Below, one piece after another: positions 55,040 through 64,000 of a DNA stretch of 64,000 bases (the first letter of the stretch is position 1; the number at the start of each line of letters is the position of its first letter). A program made the translations under genes and the position numbers. The notes beneath the pieces are model-generated. The model did no database searches and was not told where the DNA came from. It saw only the letters and a program-made list of their open reading frames with translations. The stretch is taken from positions 1-64,000 of the forward strand of contig NZ_JACHFD010000013.1 in the NCBI RefSeq assembly GCF_014201715.1, given 5' to 3'. Source of the stretch: Haloferula luteola. Its GTDB lineage: Bacteria; Verrucomicrobiota; Verrucomicrobiia; Verrucomicrobiales; Akkermansiaceae.

Positions 55040-56011
55040 TCAACCACCCAAGTCGGTTTCATCGACTCCTTCAAAGGTGATCTTGATCGGCAAAATTCGC
55101 CCATTTTCGTCGAACTCCATCTTGTCGATGCAGGTCACCCGAGCATTGCCGTCGGTTTCTCCCAATGGACGGCGGTGATAGATGGCAAACCATTCGTCTT
55201 TGCCAGGAACCTGAATCACCGAGTGATGTCCAGCTCCAGTGGCCACTTCCGGGTCCTGCTGCAACACGGTGCCAATGCGCTCGAATGGCCCAAAGGGTGA
55301 ATCCCCGATCGCATAAGCCACCCGGTAATCCGGACCCGTCCATCCACCTTCAGACCACATGAAGTAGTACTTTCCACCGCGCACGAACATGATCGGACCT
55401 TCGACGTAGTCCTGCGGAGTGATTTCCTTGAAAGTCGAGCCGTCCTCGAAAGGCACAAATCCGCTGAAGTCGTCGTTCAACTTGCCGATGTTGCAGTGAC
55501 GCCAACCCCCGTAGATCAGATAATAGGTGCCGTCGGTATCCTTGAAAACGAATTGGTCGATCGGCTGAGCTCCATGATAGAATTGATCCACCAGGGGCTT
55601 GCCGAGATGATCCTGATAGGGACCCTCAGGCTGGTCCGCCACCGCCACACCGATACCACCGAGCTGGTCGTCATTCTGGATGTCGTTGGCTCCGAAGAAG
55701 AAGTAGTATTTGCCGTCCTTTTCGATCACTGACGGAGCCCACATCGCCCGCTTCGCCCACTTGACCTCTTTGTTCGTCAGAACGTGGCGGTGCTTTTTCC
55801 AATGAACCAGGTCCTGAGACGAAAAGGCATCAAAATACAATTGCTCGTCATACGGAGCGGAATAGGTAGGAAAAATCCAGCAGGTGTCCCCGAAGATCAG
55901 GGCCTCAGGGTCGGCGTAGTGGCCTTTGAAAACCGGATTCTTGGCCGCCGCTGGACTCGCAAGCCACAGCGCAGCCAAGCCAGTGGCTTGGAAAAGGGAT
56001 TTCATGTTCAT
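55040..56011 (-). CDS. GH43-family glycoside hydrolase
   Basis: A 323-residue secreted GH43 enzyme, a single catalytic domain. The signal peptide (MNMKSLFQATGLAALWLASP) ends at AAA. The catalytic triad is visible as Asp34 (GHYADPEAL), Asp152 (QPIDQFVF) and Glu204 (DYVEGPIM). Its propeller strands include KYYFFFGANDIQ and GTYYLIYGGWRHC. It probably releases arabinose or xylose from hemicellulose. The ATG at 56011 or 56005 is equally possible. It lies just downstream of the receiver-protein gene on the same strand. Confidence 0.88.
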   Translation of the reverse strand: MNMKSLFQATGLAALWLASPAAAKNPVFKGHYADPEALIFGDTCWIFPTYSAPYDEQLYFDAFSSQDLVHWKKHRHVLTNKEVKWAKRAMWAPSVIEKDGKYYFFFGANDIQNDDQLGGIGVAVADQPEGPYQDHLGKPLVDQFYHGAQPIDQFVFKDTDGTYYLIYGGWRHCNIGKLNDDFSGFVPFEDGSTFKEITPQDYVEGPIMFVRGGKYYFMWSEGGWTGPDYRVAYAIGDSPFGPFERIGTVLQQDPEVATGAGHHSVIQVPGKDEWFAIYHRRPLGETDGNARVTCIDKMEFDENGRILPIKITFEGVDETDLGG

Positions 56012-56065
56012 CTTGGGATGCCCCTACTACGGCCCTTTCCCGCCCGGTATTCCGCCGAAATCGGA

Positions 56066-56455
56066 CTAAACGCCCGCTTCTTCGAGATGTTTCTCGATAC
56101 AGGCGAGAATCCTCTCGAAATCCGATGTTTTGCTCACAAATGGCAACCCGCCCGTGAGCGTCTCGCCGTCATCACTATCGGGATTCTCTTCGACCAGGGC
56201 AGTCAGCATCAAAATCGGCAAGGTCGCTAAGGCCGAGTCTTGACGGATCTTGGCCACCACATCGCCGCCATCCATTCCCGGCATGACCACATCAATCAAA
56301 CAAAGATCCGGCTTGAAGGACCAGATTTCGTCGATGGCTTTGGCGGAGTCATTGACTTCACGAACTTCAAATCCACCCGCCGCTTCAAGGTTGGCCTTGA
56401 GCAGGGCGGTGAAATCCGGTTCGTCGTCGATCAGGAGGAGGCGTGTCGATTTCAT
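56066..56455 (-). CDS. single-domain response regulator
   Basis: A 129-residue receiver-only protein. The acidic pocket is in LLLIDDEPDF, the phospho-acceptor Asp in CLIDVVMPGMDGG, and the conserved Lys in PFVSKTSDFERIL. With no output domain it may pass phosphate on or block partners. It follows the PAS histidine kinase gene by 33 bp, so it is probably its partner. An acidic insertion (ENPDSDDGETLTGG) before the last helix is a small variation. Confidence 0.88.
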   Translation of the reverse strand: MKSTRLLLIDDEPDFTALLKANLEAAGGFEVREVNDSAKAIDEIWSFKPDLCLIDVVMPGMDGGDVVAKIRQDSALATLPILMLTALVEENPDSDDGETLTGGLPFVSKTSDFERILACIEKHLEEAGV

Positions 56456-56488
56456 GATGTTGCACTATCACCTTTTCTGCGGAGGGAT

Positions 56489-58771
56489 TCAAGAGGCGGC
56501 TTCGCCAGCATGCACTTCTCCCGCCACGGGCGGGCAGGCATTCAAGGTGATGCGCGCCAAAGCCCCCTGACCGTCCTCACGATTCAGCAATTCTAGCCGC
56601 CCTTGATGCAGCTCGACAATCTTCCGTGAAACGGCGAGGCCCAGCCCCGTGCCGACTCCAGTCGGTTTGGTGGTAAAAAATGGGTCGTAGATCTTCTTCA
56701 GATTCTCCTCTGGAATCCCCGGCCCGGTATCCAGCACCTCGATGCACACCACATGATCGTTCATCCTCAAGTGGCTACGGGTGCGGAGACCTTCGTCTCG
56801 TTTGACATCAGAAAGCCGGGTTTCGTAGGTCCGCACCGTGATCGTCCCGCCCTTTTCCATGGCTTGCTGGGCGTTGATGAGGAGGTTCACCAACACCTGC
56901 TCAAGCTTCGGCAAATCGATCTGAACCTGAGGTAAAGTCTCCCCAAGCTCCTCGACGACCGTGACTCCTTCCTTGCGCAACTGATACTCCACCAAGGACA
57001 GCGCGTCCTTCACCACCGAGTTCGGACAGGCAGGATCCAACTTGAATTGGCGGGCTGAGGAAAAATCCACCAGGCCCCGGACGATCCGTTTGGCACGTTC
57101 AATGCCGCGCTTCATCCGCTCGATCGTTTCCCGCGCCGTTTCGTCCTCTTCCGGCACCTTGCGAGCCAGCAATTCCAAACCCATCCCAATCATCGCCAAC
57201 GGATTCTTCACCTCATGGGCGACCCCCGATGCGAGCCGCCCGATCGATTCCATCTTCTCCGCTTGAATCAGTTGCTCCTGAGCTCTCTGCAAATCCTGAT
57301 TCACTTTCACCAAATCCTCATTGAGCCGTCGCATGGAGTCCTCCGCCTCGCGGCGGTCCGTCACGTCTGTCGACACACCACCCACCGCATAAATCTCTCC
57401 TCGATCATCGCGCAGAGGAAACCTCACCGTGGCATACCAGCGAGGATGGCCATCCACATAAAACCTCTCGTCGAGCGGCAACACTTCTCCACTTTCGAGC
57501 ACCTCTCGGTCGCGTTCGCGAAATGCCTGGGCGACTTCCTTGTCCCCAAGCACGTCCTCATCGGTTTTGCCCAGAACCACTTGGCGATCGAGCCCGAACA
57601 TTTCCTCAAAACCGCGATTCACCATCAAGTAGGTGCCCGTCCGGCTTTTCATCGAAACGACTGCCGGGCTGTTGTCCATGACCTCCTGAAGCCGCCGCTG
57701 AGTTTCCGCCAACTCGGCCCTTGCTCGCCGCTCCGCGCTGACATCGCGATCCATGCCAACGATTCCCACACAACGCCCATCCACATCGAACCATGGCACC
57801 TTCGTCGTCACAACGGAATGATCCACACCGTCCGCATCCGTCATCACCCACTCGCGAATCACCACCTCCCTTTCGCCCGCCAGCAAGTCGAGATCCTCAT
57901 CCATTCCTTTCCCCGTCACTCGTTGAGGAAAGAAGTCCTCCGGCCGCCGACCCAGCATCTCCGTAGGGCTCTTGGCTCCCGCCCACTCTGCCATCGAGCG
58001 ATTCACTACAAGATACTGTCGACCCGGATCTCGAACGAAAATGCGGTCAGGGAAACTGTCGATCAACGATCGAAGCATGTTGCGCTCCCGCTCCAAGGTG
58101 TTGCGAGTCTCCATCAGCTCAGTGACGTCGCTCGACATGCCGAACGTGCCGATGACCCGACCGCTTTGATCACGAAATGGCATCTTGTTGGTGAGAACCC
58201 AGCCCTTCTTCCCATCGTGAAACTCCTCGTGCTCAATTTTTCCGACGATCGCCTGGCCCGTGCGGATGATTTCCCGCTCGTCTTTCAGGGCATCGTCAGC
58301 ATGCGAGACATCAAAGAAATCATGATCGGTCTTCCCGAGCATGTCCGAGGGGTGCCCGCAACGAAACCACTCCGACATCTTCTGGTTCACTTTCAGAAAG
58401 CGTGAGTCGATGTCCTTGAAGTAGAGGCTCGACGGCACGTGCTCCATCAGAGCATCGAAGAAGCGCTCCAGCGTTTGGTGCTCCTCGCGGACATCGGAAA
58501 GCTTCTGCTCGAGTTCATCACACTCCGCAACCAAGCGCTCCGCGAGAATCTCCGCCTCCCGGCTGTTGACTCCAACTTTTCGGCGGAGATTCCAGGACAG
58601 GGTCACGATCGACAGAGCGCCGACCGAACCCGCCGCAGCTCGAATCGCCGGATGTTCGGCACCCACGGCTAGAATACCAACCCCCAACAACCCGCAGAAT
58701 GCCAACGCCATGCGCAGCGAACGCGCGGGATCATCGCGGGCCTCACTGGGAATGTCGGATTTTTCCTCCAT
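56489..58771 (-). CDS. PAS-domain sensor histidine kinase
   Basis: A 760-residue kinase. Two hydrophobic segments near the N-terminus (about 21-60) precede three PAS domains (about 105-230, 235-355, 360-480), recognisable by FGMSSDVTEL, GIVGMDRDVS and GGVSTDVTDR. A coiled coil then leads to a HisKA domain with MESIGRLASGVAHEVKNP and an HATPase domain (NLLINAQQAM, DTGPGIPEE, GTGLGLAVSR). The ATG at 58771 (MEEKSDIPSEA) is chosen; the frame starts at 58807. Its partner is probably the receiver protein 33 bp downstream. Confidence 0.93.
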   Translation of the reverse strand: MEEKSDIPSEARDDPARSLRMALAFCGLLGVGILAVGAEHPAIRAAAGSVGALSIVTLSWNLRRKVGVNSREAEILAERLVAECDELEQKLSDVREEHQTLERFFDALMEHVPSSLYFKDIDSRFLKVNQKMSEWFRCGHPSDMLGKTDHDFFDVSHADDALKDEREIIRTGQAIVGKIEHEEFHDGKKGWVLTNKMPFRDQSGRVIGTFGMSSDVTELMETRNTLERERNMLRSLIDSFPDRIFVRDPGRQYLVVNRSMAEWAGAKSPTEMLGRRPEDFFPQRVTGKGMDEDLDLLAGEREVVIREWVMTDADGVDHSVVTTKVPWFDVDGRCVGIVGMDRDVSAERRARAELAETQRRLQEVMDNSPAVVSMKSRTGTYLMVNRGFEEMFGLDRQVVLGKTDEDVLGDKEVAQAFRERDREVLESGEVLPLDERFYVDGHPRWYATVRFPLRDDRGEIYAVGGVSTDVTDRREAEDSMRRLNEDLVKVNQDLQRAQEQLIQAEKMESIGRLASGVAHEVKNPLAMIGMGLELLARKVPEEDETARETIERMKRGIERAKRIVRGLVDFSSARQFKLDPACPNSVVKDALSLVEYQLRKEGVTVVEELGETLPQVQIDLPKLEQVLVNLLINAQQAMEKGGTITVRTYETRLSDVKRDEGLRTRSHLRMNDHVVCIEVLDTGPGIPEENLKKIYDPFFTTKPTGVGTGLGLAVSRKIVELHQGRLELLNREDGQGALARITLNACPPVAGEVHAGEAAS

Positions 58772-58847
58772 GGTCCCCAAGCAATCACGCTCAGGGACTT
58801 CGTGCAACTCGTCAGAATGGCAGCGGTCTCCACCACCACCAGGCAGG

Positions 58848-59501
58848 TCACTCCACGGTGACCTCGGTGCCCACCTTCACCTTACGGAATACCGTCGGCA
58901 TGATGCTGCGTGGTCCACGAATGCACCCATGAGAAGCCGGATAGCGTGGCACATTGCCCACGTGGTGGCCCACTCCGTCATTCGTCAATCGCATCCAGTA
59001 AGGCATGGGCGCCCCATCAAAGCGTCCCCCTTCCGGAACGTCGGAGGGCTTTTCCTTCCCGTAGATACGATTTCCCTCGGCATCGTAGACATTGCCGTAG
59101 GCATTCGAATGCTTGTCCACGGTCTTCTCGAGAATCTTGTATTCTCCGTCCGGGGTCGCATGACCCTCCTTGCCCGTCGAGATCGGGTAGTCGAGGACCA
59201 CCTCGTCGCCGTTCAGGAGGAATCCCCGCTGCTGCTTCCGCGAAAGAATCAGCCGCGAATTGCTGGCATCGGTGACCGGCAGCAACTGATCATTTTTCCA
59301 GATTTTCGATGTCTTTGGATAGCCCCGCTCGGCCTTGAAATGCTCATAGGTCCCCGGCTCATAGGGATTGATGGGTTCGCCGTGCTTATCCACTGGCTTC
59401 CCATCTGGACCGAGGAGAATCTTGTTCGATGAGTTACCGCAGCTCGCCGCCAAAAGCGTGAGCATTGTTAGGACGAGAGCCCTCTTCCAGTGTTTCTTCA
59501 T
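58848..59501 (-). CDS. L,D-transpeptidase lipoprotein
   Basis: A 217-residue lipoprotein with a lipobox (LLAASC, Cys21). The YkuD-type catalytic domain covers about 75-215, with the active-site motif YPASHGCIRGP (His191, Cys193). Such enzymes form 3-3 crosslinks in peptidoglycan or attach lipoproteins to it. The N-terminal part (NPYEPGTYEHFKAE) is extracytoplasmic. It starts 53 bp from the stop of the TPR protein gene on the same strand. Confidence 0.92.
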   Translation of the reverse strand: MKKHWKRALVLTMLTLLAASCGNSSNKILLGPDGKPVDKHGEPINPYEPGTYEHFKAERGYPKTSKIWKNDQLLPVTDASNSRLILSRKQQRGFLLNGDEVVLDYPISTGKEGHATPDGEYKILEKTVDKHSNAYGNVYDAEGNRIYGKEKPSDVPEGGRFDGAPMPYWMRLTNDGVGHHVGNVPRYPASHGCIRGPRSIMPTVFRKVKVGTEVTVE

Positions 59502-59554
59502 GTGTCAGCGGGGGTTGGGTCCGGGGCTATAGCTTGCGACAGGCTGAGGTGCAA

Positions 59555-60886
59555 TCATTTGGATGCGGGAACGAGGAGACGGTCTGCGCGTTGCCTCAAT
59601 GAGGTGGCCGCGGCCTCATTTCGGCCTTGGGATTCCCAGAGTTTTGCTAGCAGACGGAGTGCCGCTGCCGTCTCGCGGTTGGCCTCCGGAGGAAAGGATT
59701 GAATCGCCTGCCGCAACCGCTGCTCCGCCGCCTCCCACTCGCCAGCAGCCATCAAGTCATCGGCAAAAGCCATTTGAAACTCGGGTCGCGATGCTGGTCC
59801 ATCGGGTCCCGACAAACGCTCAGCCTCTCGAAAACGGGCCGATGCTCGCGGCCGAACTTCAGGGTCACGCAGGGTCGCCACCGCCAACAGCGCCGCCAAA
59901 TCAGCATCTTCAGGGAAATCAAAAACTCCCTTCTCCAATAGAATTCTCGCGGGCCGCGGCTGCTCGGCATCAAGCCACTCCTGAGCCAGTGCCTCGAAAT
60001 CTCCAGGATCTCCGCCATGGATCTTCAAACGCTCTGCCGCATGATATCGTGCCCGATCCGGCTGCTCCTGCTTTCGGTACCACTTCGCCAAGGTCTGATG
60101 GGCCAGCCACCGCCGCGGATCGATTTTCAGGACGGCCTCCAACACCTCCCGTCCCTCATCATCGCGATTCGCGGCAAGGAGCAAAACACCCCAGCGCACC
60201 CGCAGATCAAGGGAGGTGGGTGCCGCTTCGGCATGCCGCGCCAATACCTCGACAGCTTGATCGAGACGGCCTGTCGTGCGATAATGCTCGCTCGCCGTCA
60301 TCGCCAGCTCCGGTGATGATGCATACACCTGCATGGCTTGCTCTAACAAGCGGTCCAAACGCAGCTGCACCTCCTGATCATCGCGGGCAAAAAGATTTCG
60401 CGCCAATTCCAAGGCGAACTTCACCCCATTTGGATCGTGAATTTGCGTCGCCTCCGCAAACAGCTCCAAAGATTTTTCCCGCAGCCCTCGCGATTCATAG
60501 TTGCGAAACAACCGCCGCCGGACCCCGATACTTCGCGGAAATTGCCGCGCAGCCGCCTCCAACACCTCTGCCGCCTTGCCTCCGTCCTCTTTCCCCAGCA
60601 GATCCGCATAAGCCACCTGCGCCTCCAAACGCTCCGGATGAGCGCGGGCAAAAACCGCATAGCGCGATAGGGCCTCTTCCGATCGTCCCGATCGCTCCGC
60701 CAGCGTCGCCACCTTTTGCACCAAAGGCCACGCCTCAGGATCCTCCTCCAGCGCCTTCTCGAACCGTCGTGTGCCATCGCCCCCACGCGCCGACTCCAGC
60801 ACTCCGCGAGCGAACTCCATCTTCGGATTTCCGAAGACCGGAGCCGTCATTGCGAGCAGTACCAGAAGCCTCATGCCATCGATCAT
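59555..60886 (-). CDS. exported TPR-repeat protein
   Basis: A 443-residue protein made of tandem tetratricopeptide repeats after a short signal sequence (MRLLVLLAMTAPVFG). Repeats are visible as VQKVATLAERSGRSEEALSR, VLARHAEAAPTSLDLRV and TLAKWYRKQEQPDRA. TPRs bind partner proteins, so it may be a scaffold in the periplasm. The ATG at 60886 gives MIDGMRLL; the inner ATG at 60874 is possible. The next gene on this strand is the L,D-transpeptidase. Confidence 0.82.
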   Translation of the reverse strand: MIDGMRLLVLLAMTAPVFGNPKMEFARGVLESARGGDGTRRFEKALEEDPEAWPLVQKVATLAERSGRSEEALSRYAVFARAHPERLEAQVAYADLLGKEDGGKAAEVLEAAARQFPRSIGVRRRLFRNYESRGLREKSLELFAEATQIHDPNGVKFALELARNLFARDDQEVQLRLDRLLEQAMQVYASSPELAMTASEHYRTTGRLDQAVEVLARHAEAAPTSLDLRVRWGVLLLAANRDDEGREVLEAVLKIDPRRWLAHQTLAKWYRKQEQPDRARYHAAERLKIHGGDPGDFEALAQEWLDAEQPRPARILLEKGVFDFPEDADLAALLAVATLRDPEVRPRASARFREAERLSGPDGPASRPEFQMAFADDLMAAGEWEAAEQRLRQAIQSFPPEANRETAAALRLLAKLWESQGRNEAAATSLRQRADRLLVPASK

Positions 60887-60926
60887 CAAACGACACCGGA
60901 TCTCAAATCCAGCGGCAAATCCTCAC

Positions 60927-61673
60927 TCACCGAACCCGCAGGGCCTCCAAAAACAGTTCGGCCGTTCTCGTTGCCGATGCTGGATTCTGACCCGTCGCCA
61001 AGCGACCGTCCAGAACAGCATTTTCCTGGAAATTCTCCCCGATCTGAGGTTCCGCCCCTGCCTCCCGCAGCGCATCTTCCAACGAAAACGGAACCACCTG
61101 AGTCAACTCGACCGCCTTCTCCTCCGCATTGGTGAACACCGCGACCTTCTTTCCGGAAACCAGCGATTCCCCATTCGATCGCTTCACCTTCACCAATGAA
61201 GCTGGACCATGGCAGACCGCACCCACGACGCCCCCTTGCTCATCAATGGCAGCCGTCAAGGACTGCACCGCATCCGAATCCGGAAAATCCCACATCGCCC
61301 CATGACCGCCAGCAAAGAAAATCCCATCGAAATCTTCCGCCTTCAGACCCCTCAGGCTCTTTGTCTGAGCCACTCCGGGTCGATCCGGATCTCCATTTCC
61401 AAATTTCTCCCAAAACTCCCGGCTCGCAGCGTCCTCCAGCTTCATTGACTTGGGATCGATCGGTGCGAAATCTCCTTGAGGGCTCGCCAACACCACCTCT
61501 CGATCCGCCGCCTCAAACACTTGAAACGGGTGAGCCGCCTCCGAAAGGAAAAACCCCGTCGGTTTCCCCGTATCTCCCAATTCTTTGTGATTCGTCAGCA
61601 CCAGCAGCAGAGGTCGTGGGTCGGCCGCGACCGCCGCCACGGCAGAAATCATCAAGGCAATCAACGCTTTCAT
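60927..61673 (-). CDS. exported DJ-1/PfpI-family protein
   Basis: A 248-residue protein with a cleavable signal sequence (MKALIALMISAVAAVAADPR) and a DJ-1/PfpI (type 1 glutamine amidotransferase-like) fold. The nucleophile Cys lies in GGVVGAVCHGPASL, with FAGGHGAMWD upstream. Family members include chaperones, glyoxalases and proteases; the family is large and the activity here is unknown. Its presence outside the cytoplasm is less common. It diverges from the gene starting at 61766. Confidence 0.86.
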   Translation of the reverse strand: MKALIALMISAVAAVAADPRPLLLVLTNHKELGDTGKPTGFFLSEAAHPFQVFEAADREVVLASPQGDFAPIDPKSMKLEDAASREFWEKFGNGDPDRPGVAQTKSLRGLKAEDFDGIFFAGGHGAMWDFPDSDAVQSLTAAIDEQGGVVGAVCHGPASLVKVKRSNGESLVSGKKVAVFTNAEEKAVELTQVVPFSLEDALREAGAEPQIGENFQENAVLDGRLATGQNPASATRTAELFLEALRVR

Positions 61674-61765
61674 CTGCCCCCGTTACCACCGGATCCGTTC
61701 AGCGCAAGCTCCCCGCCGTTCCTCCCAGCCTTGGCAATCTCCGCTCCTTGGCGCTACCTCACTGC

Positions 61766-62302
61766 GTGATCGCACCTTGCCCTTTTCTCCCCGCTGCCCG
61801 GGGAAACCTAAGCTATCGGGAACTGCGGGCTTTTGGCGAAAGGCGCGATGCCGAATTCTATCTCGCCGCCCTCACCTATGCCCAGTGCCTTTGGCAACGG
61901 GGGCTCCCCGCGCAGGCCATTCTCCCTCTCGACCGCGCCTGGGGTGCCGAACTGCGCGGCGATGAACCGATCCTCCACCTCTGGCCCGCGCCTTACGCGG
62001 CCTTGATTTGGATGCTAGAAAACCGCCCCCAGGGTCCATTTCTTGGCAACCCCGTGCGCCACTTTCAGCACCTCGCCACCCGAGTTCGGGGGACCCGACG
62101 GGAAATCCGCTCTTGGCGGGCATGGGCCTGCTTCCATCTCGCCGAAAAAGCCCTCCCCTCATCCGAATTCCCTCGTGACTTTCACCAAATCCAAAGGGAC
62201 TCCCTCACCATCCCATCTCCCGCTCACGTCCGACAAAATCTTGCCGAACTCGGCTGGCCTGGCGAAGCCGCGTGGCTGGACGCACATCACCCTTCCGTCT
62301 AA
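61766..62302 (+). CDS. hypothetical protein (GTG or TTG start)
   Basis: A 178-residue soluble protein. The frame is open from far upstream, but the sequence before about 61748 looks like an antisense shadow of the divergent DJ-1-like gene. I place the start at GTG 61766; TTG 61748 is an alternative. Helical segments include REIRSWRAWACFHLAEKALP and RRDAEFYLAALTYAQCLWQR. I do not recognise a family. It converges on the GH1-like gene, whose stop overlaps it by 4 bp. Confidence 0.55.
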   Translation: MIAPCPFLPAARGNLSYRELRAFGERRDAEFYLAALTYAQCLWQRGLPAQAILPLDRAWGAELRGDEPILHLWPAPYAALIWMLENRPQGPFLGNPVRHFQHLATRVRGTRREIRSWRAWACFHLAEKALPSSEFPRDFHQIQRDSLTIPSPAHVRQNLAELGWPGEAAWLDAHHPSV

Positions 62303-64000
62303 CTTCTCTCCCCGGCAATCCATTGCCGATAGCGTTCCACCTCCGGTGTCGCCACCCGCCGCAATGCCGGATCGTGATCCAAATCGACGAAGTAGAGGCC
62401 AAAATCCGTGTTCGGATCGAATGCATGCCCCCACTCGCGGTTCGAGGTGATCGACCACCAATTGTAGGCACGGACCGGCAAACCTTCCTCCAAAGCCGCG
62501 TGAACTTCCCGCAGATGGGCATCCATGTAGTCACCGCGCTTCATCCCCCCCGCTTCCGGAGGGCAGCCGTTTTCGACAATCAACAACTCCTGTCCCGGAA
62601 ACCAACCCGACAACCTCCGCAACGCATTCCTCAAACCTCGCGGCCACACCGGCGCCCTCAAAAACCGCCCATGCGCCGCCTCCTCCAACAACCGAAATCG
62701 GTGCAATCCGAAAGTCGGAAGTCCCCAGTAGTAGTCCAACCCGATGAAATCCTGCGCACCGACCGCTTCCGCCGGGCACAACTCCTCGGGAAGCCTTCCT
62801 GAGGTGCCCAAATACCACCAACTCGCATTGGCAATCAGGCTCGTCGTCCCCCAAAATCGCCATGCCCAGTTCAACCACGTCGACTTCGATTCCAGCACCG
62901 TCAAACGTTCCGCCGGATCGAGAGGAATCCATTCCACCGCCTCTGGATCCCCCAACAATTCGGCCGCAATTCGCCTCGCCAACTTCATCTCCAAACCTGG
63001 CGCCGGCGCATCTGCAGAAAGCCCCGCCGCGTCCCGCCGAAATCCCATCCGCAAGAAGCCCCGCCGTTTCACTCGTCGCACCCCGCGGGCACTCGACAAA
63101 TCATCCGGCAGACTATCCCCCCCTCGAAACACCTCATGCACCGACGTCGGAGGCATTCCCGGGTGATCCGGCCAATCTCCTTCTTCCCCTCGCAGCCCCG
63201 CGATTGCCCGGTTGACCCGCTCCATCAATCGAGCATGCCCGTGGGCCGCCGCCACCACGTAGTGCTCTTCCGTCAAGTCCCCCAACAACACCCTCAATCC
63301 ATTCACCCCTTCAGGCATCAGGTAGAAAGCATCCCCATACAGAGCCTCCACACCACCATGGCGAAGCTTACTCCGAGCTTCGTCGTAGTTGGAGAAAATC
63401 AACACCTGCGCATCAGCCGGCAAATCCCGCCGCCACGACTCTGCCTGATTTCCCACATCCACCACTCCCACTCTTAGTCCGTTCAAGGCCTCTTTGCCCT
63501 CCCCTCGAAACTCTGATCTCACCACCACCGCTTTCCCGGTTCGCACATACGGATGACTGATCTCAAATCGCGTCTGGTCCGCTGCGCTGATGCCTCCAAT
63601 CACCAAGTCCACCTCCGACTTCTCCGATACCAACGCCCGCCGCGTCGTGAACTTGAACAAGGCTTCTCCCAACGCTCGGTGACACGCCCCCCAGTCCATC
63701 AACTTCTGCAACCATACCGGAAAACCCGTCACCAATGGGTTCACACCCACAGGAGATCCCGGACGCCGAGAATGGATCAATCGCCGTGCCCGCGCGTGCG
63801 CACGAAATAAATTTGGCACCAACTTCCCCACCGCCTTGGCTTCCGAATCCACCGATGCTCCCCGCGGCATCCCCGGAGGCATGTAGTAGCGACTCTGCCA
63901 CCACGGCTTGATATACCCAAACGTCAATTGGCTCGGCTCGTTGAAGGTAATCCACCAGTCCACCCGGTCCCCCATCACCTCGGCCACCCGGTCCGCATAG
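62299..64000 (-). CDS. GH1-family glycosidase with permuted solute-binding domain insertion (N-terminus cut by window end)
   Basis: A partial gene; the upstream end lies outside the window. Visible residues (numbered from 63987) are GH1 N-terminal (1-122) with acid/base motif WWITFNEP, then an inserted region, then GH1 C-terminal (370-562) with nucleophile motif LLIVENG and AYNWWSITSNREWGHAF. The inserted 123-369 is a type 3 solute-binding-protein domain in unusual order. The half normally second (EVDLVIGGISAADQTRF, LLGDLTEEHYVVAAAHG) comes first, and the half normally first (RGFLRMGFRRDAAGL, LDPAERLTVLES) comes second. Joining GH1 at 122/370 and the SBP at 369/123 would read seamlessly. GH1 enzymes cleave beta-glycosides, and the SBP domain may sense a ligand; the latter is inference. 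Confidence 0.85.
   Translation of the reverse strand, partial: YADRVAEVMGDRVDWWITFNEPSQLTFGYIKPWWQSRYYMPPGMPRGASVDSEAKAVGKLVPNLFRAHARARRLIHSRRPGSPVGVNPLVTGFPVWLQKLMDWGACHRALGEALFKFTTRRALVSEKSEVDLVIGGISAADQTRFEISHPYVRTGKAVVVRSEFRGEGKEALNGLRVGVVDVGNQAESWRRDLPADAQVLIFSNYDEARSKLRHGGVEALYGDAFYLMPEGVNGLRVLLGDLTEEHYVVAAAHGHARLMERVNRAIAGLRGEEGDWPDHPGMPPTSVHEVFRGGDSLPDDLSSARGVRRVKRRGFLRMGFRRDAAGLSADAPAPGLEMKLARRIAAELLGDPEAVEWIPLDPAERLTVLESKSTWLNWAWRFWGTTSLIANASWWYLGTSGRLPEELCPAEAVGAQDFIGLDYYWGLPTFGLHRFRLLEEAAHGRFLRAPVWPRGLRNALRRLSGWFPGQELLIVENGCPPEAGGMKRGDYMDAHLREVHAALEEGLPVRAYNWWSITSNREWGHAFDPNTDFGLYFVDLDHDPALRRVATPEVERYRQWIAGERS

Follow-up and report, generated by a model that had tools for sequence, protein, structure and literature searches.

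Domain insertion, often combined with circular permutation, is a standard laboratory recipe for allosteric switches. Engineered examples are a red fluorescent protein that carries a circularly permuted GltI (cpGltI), R-ncp-iGluSnFR1, and insertions joining maltose-binding protein and β-lactamase, in passages of PMC6335823, as well as chimeras of xylanase and xylose-binding protein (PMC4536891, PMC4896006). The β-glucosidases of family GH1 (PF00232; Td2F2, 3wh5, and BglA, 1uyq) form a complete (β/α)8 barrel with both catalytic glutamates and have a short α5 region, while solute-binding proteins (SBPs) of family 3 (PF00497; 5eyf, 6h1u, 2v25, and 1xt8) are two-lobed receptors for acidic and polar amino acids. 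The lytic transglycosylase MltF carries a regulatory domain that we take to be SBP-like. Passages of PMC10746161 describe how muropeptides engage this N-terminal domain and how it switches the catalytic domain.

The gene described here shares features with each of these systems. Like the GH1 β-glucosidases, its product has the complete barrel (modelled in relatives) and both catalytic glutamates, but it carries a 254-residue SBP where those enzymes have a short α5 region, and a family-wide Asp precedes its conserved Tyr pair. Like the SBPs of family 3, it contains, after rotation, the whole two-lobed sequence with the equivalents of GlnH R147, S/T164, and D250; unlike them, the SBP is permuted, lies inside an enzyme, shows no apparent signal peptide, and in the window's clade has lost R169. 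The resemblance to MltF is that of a natural glycan-cleaving enzyme, for which regulation by an SBP domain is predicted here by analogy; MltF, however, is an envelope enzyme with a catalytic domain of the lytic transglycosylase kind rather than GH1, and its regulatory domain stands in tandem, neither inserted nor permuted. As in the engineered switches, a binding protein and an output domain are joined through domain insertion, and cpGltI is likewise a permuted glutamate SBP used as the inserted part; those constructs are man-made, whereas here the output domain is a natural GH1 barrel and the new ends fall between α2 and β3 of lobe 1. Literature searches on the architecture (titles and beginnings of abstracts, with subscription papers mostly outside their scope) returned no description of a GH1 protein with an embedded permuted SBP, in agreement with a preliminary description of this DNA, which had recognized no named family; nor is the architecture described in the passages of PMC13114784, PMC6069109, PMC6335823, and PMC10746161.

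The GH1-SBP Gene and Its Parts

The window, the whole stretch of DNA analyzed, comprises bases 1–64000 (64,000 bases) of a 156-kb contig (NZ_JACHFD010000013.1). Its edge falls inside the GH1-SBP gene: a minus-strand open frame at 62299–63999 continues past the edge to 64440, giving a gene at 62299–64440 (minus strand) of 713 codons, encoding protein P0001, with the final 440 bases (the N-terminus) outside the window. The features are as follows.

62299..64000, minus strand: 3′ part of the GH1-SBP gene; start candidates are TTG at 64440 or ATG at 64416.
63643..63999, minus strand: part of the GH1 N-terminal half (residues 148–266), with acid/base E168 (TFNEP) at 63937–63939.
63175..63642, minus strand: insert part 1 (residues 267–422), comprising SBP β3 of lobe 1, the hinge, lobe 2, the return into lobe 1, and the C-terminal helix, from SBP profile matches and the L069 model.
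63331–63333, minus strand: pocket Asp, equivalent to GlnH D250, residue 370, inside insert part 1.
63100..63174, minus strand: linker between the former C- and N-termini of the SBP (residues 423–447); in the L069 model the low-pLDDT segments fall in the corresponding stretch.
62881..63099, minus strand: insert part 2 (residues 448–520), the SBP N-terminal part (β1-α1-β2-α2), from SBP profile matches and the L069 model.
62905–62907, minus strand: Arg, equivalent to GlnH R147, residue 512, inside insert part 2.
62302..62880, minus strand: GH1 C-terminal half (residues 521–713), with nucleophile E623 (VENG) at 62572–62574.

The insert in P0001 thus occupies residues 267–520 or so (62881–63642), about 254 residues of family-3 SBP, in the α5 region of the GH1 barrel between strands β5 and β6. 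The preliminary description had put the junctions at 62881 and 63616, close to these positions, and the catalytic motifs that it placed in the two GH1 halves are confirmed as those of E168 and E623.

Identity of the Insert

In Pfam searches, P0001 matches GH1 (PF00232) in two stretches (E = 5.7e-52; 177.1 bits versus a gathering cut-off of 22.6), and PF00497 gives no match up to E = 1, the SBP being too divergent. Amino-acid SBP models of NCBIfam match residues 275–418 weakly (6e-8), below their cut-offs. Because the insert leaves no Pfam match in P0001, the GH1-SBP subfamily can escape ordinary annotation. The SBP identity of the insert in P0001 is certain because its relatives match SBPs; PF00497 matches the relative L086 at 2.1e-23 (82.9 bits versus a cut-off of 26.4).

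We cut the insert into two profiles, A2 (first part) and A3 (second part), using the 31 full-length Akkermansiaceae orthologs (set A1) that are left of 32 full-length matches when L030, which has an in-frame TAG, is excluded. A2 matched 67 PDB sequences at E up to 0.01 (best 6.2e-24), and the best 60 of these 67 are SBPs or SBP-fold relatives by name, such as cyclohexadienyl dehydratase and the BvgS sensor; a chain named MltF is among the SBP matches. A3 matched 17 PDB sequences at E up to 1 (best 5.4e-13). Among the matches listed, those of A2 mostly begin at SBP chain residue 55–115, and those of A3 cover the initial 45–115 residues of SBP chains, ending at chain residue 46–115. On chains matched by both profiles, the two stretches are complementary and abut or nearly so:

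1xt8: A3 35–105, A2 105–253.
2yjp: A3 48–115, A2 115–264.
5eyf: A3 34–75, A2 75–224.
2v25: A3 31–96, A2 98–244.

When seven inserts were restored to SBP order, the resulting profile matched 5eyf in a single stretch (E = 1.2e-44, profile positions 13–238 of 241), as it did Mycobacterium tuberculosis GlnH (6h1u, 1.5e-39) and 1xt8 (2.1e-36); about 11 additional residues lie at the joint between the former cut ends. The same seven inserts in native order needed two stretches for 5eyf, 6h1u, and 1xt8. By these sequence comparisons, the insert is a complete two-lobed SBP3 domain in circularly permuted form, with the C-terminal part before the N-terminal part; both sequence halves of family 3 are present, the usual N-to-C order of the lobes is absent, and the new ends both lie between α2 and β3 of lobe 1. 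An origin of the insert from two unrelated domains is ruled out by the A2 and A3 matches to the same SBP chains and by the rotation test. The preliminary claim, a GH1 enzyme interrupted by a permuted SBP, is supported by the profile matches, the rotation test, orthologs in isolates, and the confident fold of relatives.

Predicted Fold of Two Relatives

AlphaFold predicted the ortholog L069, 73% identical to P0001, with a pLDDT of 83.5 and a pTM of 0.79; its segments of at least three residues under pLDDT 50 are 409–422 and 436–444, both in the linker. The model of L086 (pLDDT 80.1, pTM 0.73) has five such segments, including 427–457 in the linker. A complete (β/α)8 barrel is present in both models. 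In L086, VIA-align finds the barrel complete around the insert, with a best Z of 38.7 over 392 aligned residues (rmsd 3.4, model residues 1..733); the best 50 rows are GH1 β-glucosidases with Z of about 37–39 over 349–394 residues, most of them spanning model residues 1..730 or so. The best 50 Foldseek rows for L069 are GH1 enzymes, some of them presumed by us to belong to the family. The matches listed by both programs are GH1 chains, and the fold of the insert is read from the sequence profiles, the pLDDT, and the secondary structure of the models, which in L069 follows the order of strands and helices that an SBP starting at β3 should have.

Active Site of the Barrel

Ten GH1 site positions are invariant in all 74 distinct members of a set selected with two motifs, which include the Gln and the final Glu-Trp: Gln, His, the Asn and Glu of NEP, a family-specific Asp, Tyr, the nucleophile Glu, Trp, Glu, and Trp. 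Their roles are presumably those assigned in work on GH1. The acid/base Glu (in T-x-N-E-P) and the nucleophile Glu (in E-N-G) are each found in 74 of 74, and they do not vary in alignments A1 and A4 either. Four of 100 unfiltered rows failed the motifs, one through an Ala to Ser change elsewhere and three because they are truncated: L072 lies at a contig end, and L030 and L067 are one gene that carries an in-frame TAG. In the glycone site, the residue ahead of the conserved Tyr pair is Asp in 74/74; ordinary GH1 enzymes have Asn there, as do the ordinary GH1 rows L115 and L119. A further difference is the motif SITSNREWG, where the GH1 consensus reads SLLDNFEW.

The preliminary description had proposed either a ligand-gated glycosidase or a sensor that looks like an enzyme. 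A GH1 barrel that binds without cleaving would accord with the family-specific Asp (74/74, where ordinary GH1 has Asn) and with the lack of a catabolic operon, yet all 74 members share the acid/base and nucleophile glutamates and the remaining sugar-binding residues. Because the active site is invariant, the non-enzyme reading is disfavored, and we regard it as highly improbable. The gated glycosidase gains from the constraint on the SBP pocket in the window's clade (see below), while the gating itself is something we infer.

Distribution across Genomes

Among 195 genomes of the window's family, 63 gave a match: 32 full-length (the window's own genome included, and one with an in-frame TAG), three lacking lobe 2 (G005, G029, G160), three with the gene cut by contig ends (G003, G018, G154), two with only a C-terminal remnant (G122, G163), and the remaining 23 with ordinary GH1 or SBP genes only. 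A contig scan with two patterns biased to the Verrucomicrobiota form located 42 loci, comprising 33 full, three without lobe 2, and six partial. Across 387 genomes drawn from the window's phylum, with two candidates scored per genome, all eight full-length matches belong to the window's own family, and the next best were ordinary GH1 genes (4.9e-45).

The architecture extends to two other groups. Fifty-two of 149 Eremiobacterota-type genomes (the phylum of L078, which is labelled Candidatus Eremiobacterota) match at 1e-50 or better, split and partial matches included, and 34 of the 149 have one near-full-length match. Chloroflexota-type draws (the phylum of L079, L086, and L089; 251–301 genomes, overlapping almost wholly) gave five full-length members, one fragment, and three insert-less relatives of 538–559 residues; three of the five are the genomes that led us there, and G699 and G754 were newly found. 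The record of L086 (genome G543) is titled Proteobacteria, yet it was drawn from the phylum of the Chloroflexi L079 and the Anaerolineae L089, and the title is probably a mislabel.

The GH1 subfamily with an embedded permuted SBP is real and widespread, recurring in three bacterial phyla. An assembly artefact, which the preliminary description had raised, is excluded: the same architecture occurs in independent genomes, including single-contig genomes (G019, G048, G098, G082, G131) and the named isolates Luteolibacter marinus NBU1238, Haloferula sp. BvORR071, Roseibacillus persicicus, and R. ishigakijimensis.

The SBP Pocket and Its Predicted Ligand

In GlnH, the clamp for the α-amino acid consists of Ser/Thr164, Arg169, and Asp250, according to passages of PMC6069109. 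We counted the equivalents of pocket residues in 68 two-lobed members (the six lobe-2-less of the 74 being excluded) and compared the mean entropy of 17 pocket positions, chosen by us as the GlnH contacts plus loops 99–103, 163, and 209–212, with that of the other insert positions (196 in the Akkermansiaceae set) and with 10,000 random position sets.

Akkermansiaceae main (n = 35): R147 35, Tyr232 35, D250 35, Gly162 35, S/T164 35, R169 2; pocket entropy 0.53 versus 1.17 elsewhere, 24/10,000 random sets as low.
Eremiobacterota-type (n = 25): R147 25, R169 25, D250 25; pocket entropy 1.11 versus 1.47, 455/10,000 as low.
Chloroflexota-type (n = 5): R147 4, R169 5, D250 4 (one Glu); pocket entropy 0.94 versus 1.16, 1,013/10,000 as low.
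Roseibacillus-type (n = 3): R147 0, R169 0, D250 3; pocket entropy 0.53 versus 0.61, 3,144/10,000 as low.

Judged from these entropies, a pocket constraint is clear only in the window's clade; elsewhere it is weak or absent. Part of the constraint may come from hinge residues that are conserved for structural reasons. The Arg that holds the α-carboxylate (R169) is kept in 30/30 two-lobed members from the other two phyla. The window's clade has lost it and has a two-residue deletion in that region; in the alignment with known SBPs, the R169 column is a gap in 35/35 Verrucomicrobiota rows. A displaced Arg (in QTRFE, not invariant) may substitute for it. Since R169 is gone while the equivalents of Arg147, Tyr232, and Asp250 are invariant, we infer that the ligand changed in the Akkermansiaceae clade. 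L086 is identical to 5eyf at all six pocket positions, and because 5eyf is named as the binding protein of a glutamate transporter, we predict an acidic amino acid, either glutamate or aspartate, as the Chloroflexota-type ligand. L089 is divergent and its alignment unsure: one alignment gives Arg at R147, and in the other a single row of its group lacks Arg there.

The conserved pocket of the Akkermansiaceae clade would also suit an SBP that acts as a second substrate-recognition module, binding the non-sugar part of a substrate (for example, an amino-acid glycoside) or capturing the product, and so providing specificity without allostery. Polar amino acids are the ligands of the closest SBPs, and the matches include 5l9o, named a deoxyfructosyl-amino-acid binding protein. 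We nevertheless consider such a module unlikely: by sequence and secondary structure the insert sits in the α5 region, outside the usual active-site loops, and loss of lobe 2 would abolish recognition, yet the active site is intact in members that have lost it.

Loss of Lobe 2 and of the Whole Insert

A tree of 59 rows, built from GH1 columns with those of the insert removed, separates 44 family rows from 15 ordinary GH1 rows (100/100). On this tree, loss of lobe 2 in Akkermansiaceae takes two changes (L084 with L085; L080), and lobe 2 is absent in 3 of the 36 gene-spanning loci of the contig scan. Three Eremiobacterota-type sequences set outside the tree (L174, L175, L176) also lack it, and the match table of the 149 genomes suggests further members of that kind. 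Lobe 2 has been deleted more than once, and lobe 1 is retained in every member without it.

The whole insert is absent from three close relatives (L125, L132, L133), which have no SBP between the helix after β5 and the helix before NWW and so mark the insertion site. The tree nests these three beside L089, with L089 and L125 on long branches, and all 41 insert-bearing rows as one clade are not rejected (AU p = 0.106); the insert-less state may be secondary or ancestral. In L132, the loop in place of the insert (TRAENRLLTLL) looks by eye like SBP helix α2 and is perhaps the scar of a lost insert, a likeness not seen in L133. Since lobe 2 or the whole insert is missing in some relatives, the sensor is dispensable for persistence of the protein.

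Two rows of one gene, L030 (G133:C534) and L067, have an in-frame TAG right after the WSIT motif, with the last 50 or so residues lost, and L041 and L042 are only C-terminal remnants; this copy and these remnants suggest ongoing loss of the gene in some lineages.

Repeated loss of lobe 2 is the strongest counter-argument to a switch. It could mean that the insert is a relic of an ancestral sensor, with lobe 1 now structural or oligomer-forming, lobe 2 dispensable, and the protein an ordinary constitutive glycosidase. The losses (at least two in Akkermansiaceae, and others in Eremiobacterota-type members), the constant retention of lobe 1, and the missing α-carboxylate Arg in the window's clade would all fit. 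A relic, however, predicts the opposite of the pocket pattern in the 35 Akkermansiaceae sequences, in which the pocket is more conserved than the remaining insert, and R147, R169, and D250 are each kept in 25/25 Eremiobacterota-type members, making a relic doubtful in our view. Our strongest argument is that the pocket positions are retained in the very clade that lacks the carboxylate Arg, as expected after a change of ligand.

A Proposed Mechanism

On balance, we favor a predicted intracellular, retaining GH1 β-glycosidase with a Venus-flytrap ligand sensor inside its barrel, the sensor probably gating the enzyme. The barrel helix ahead of the insert would run straight into SBP strand β3, which would end in ligand-binding residues at the hinge. 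Closure of the two lobes on a small ligand could then pull on the α5 region and modulate the active site, and lineages without lobe 2 would be ligand-independent. Because the permutation sets both ends of the sensor side by side, entry of the domain into a loop is possible. An active enzyme and a receptor that binds some ligand are both predictions, and likely ones; control of the enzyme by the receptor is suggested by the architecture and by analogy with MltF and the engineered insertions.

A fuller history can be put forward tentatively, and we hold it a little less firmly than the gated enzyme itself. In it, a natural ligand-gated glycosidase would have evolved the engineers' solution independently, with a permuted glutamate-type receptor in a barrel enzyme; the gene would have spread between three phyla, the ligand specificity would have been rebuilt in Akkermansiaceae, and clean deletions of lobe 2 would later have disabled the switch several times, which would have produced always-on or always-off variants. 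A natural family that combines insertion with permutation and has lobe-2-less and insert-less relatives would allow the installation and disabling of a sensor to be traced stepwise, with a natural control for each state. If the gated reading is true, a receptor family known from the periplasm would have a role that is probably cytoplasmic.

Cell Location and Genomic Neighborhood

No signal peptide was apparent by eye in many members, because a possible start codon lies only a few residues from where the barrel begins (MAFPKGFLFG, MKFPKGFMFG). P0001 has no PADLOC match, and a defense system was rejected. A conserved operon is likewise ruled out: no neighbor is common to more than 7 of 43 loci, and no pathway is therefore indicated. 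The commonest, in 7/43 loci and in Akkermansiaceae, is a sulfatase (PF00884) or homologue (for example, L083:8128-9825 and L074:8892-10547), which in L083 lies directly downstream of the GH1-SBP gene on the same strand; sulfatases are a common gene family in these bacteria. At 12 of 19 Eremiobacterota-type loci (for example, L166:9067-9858), an SDR dehydrogenase homologue on the opposite strand neighbors the gene, about 2 kb away in two of them; it is too general to name a pathway.

Other frames adjoin the gene. Outside the window, a 2,250-residue open frame (L002:4468-11220, minus strand) lies directly upstream on the same strand and has no Pfam match at E 0.001. A 368-residue frame on the opposite strand adjoins the gene at 61196–62302 (plus strand) of the window; it also has no Pfam match at E 0.001, and by eye only its second half is protein-like. 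Downstream, at 55040–61673 (minus strand) of the window, Pfam identifies a DJ-1/PfpI protein, a TPR protein, an L,D-transpeptidase (YkuD), a PAS histidine kinase, and a GH43 glycosidase.
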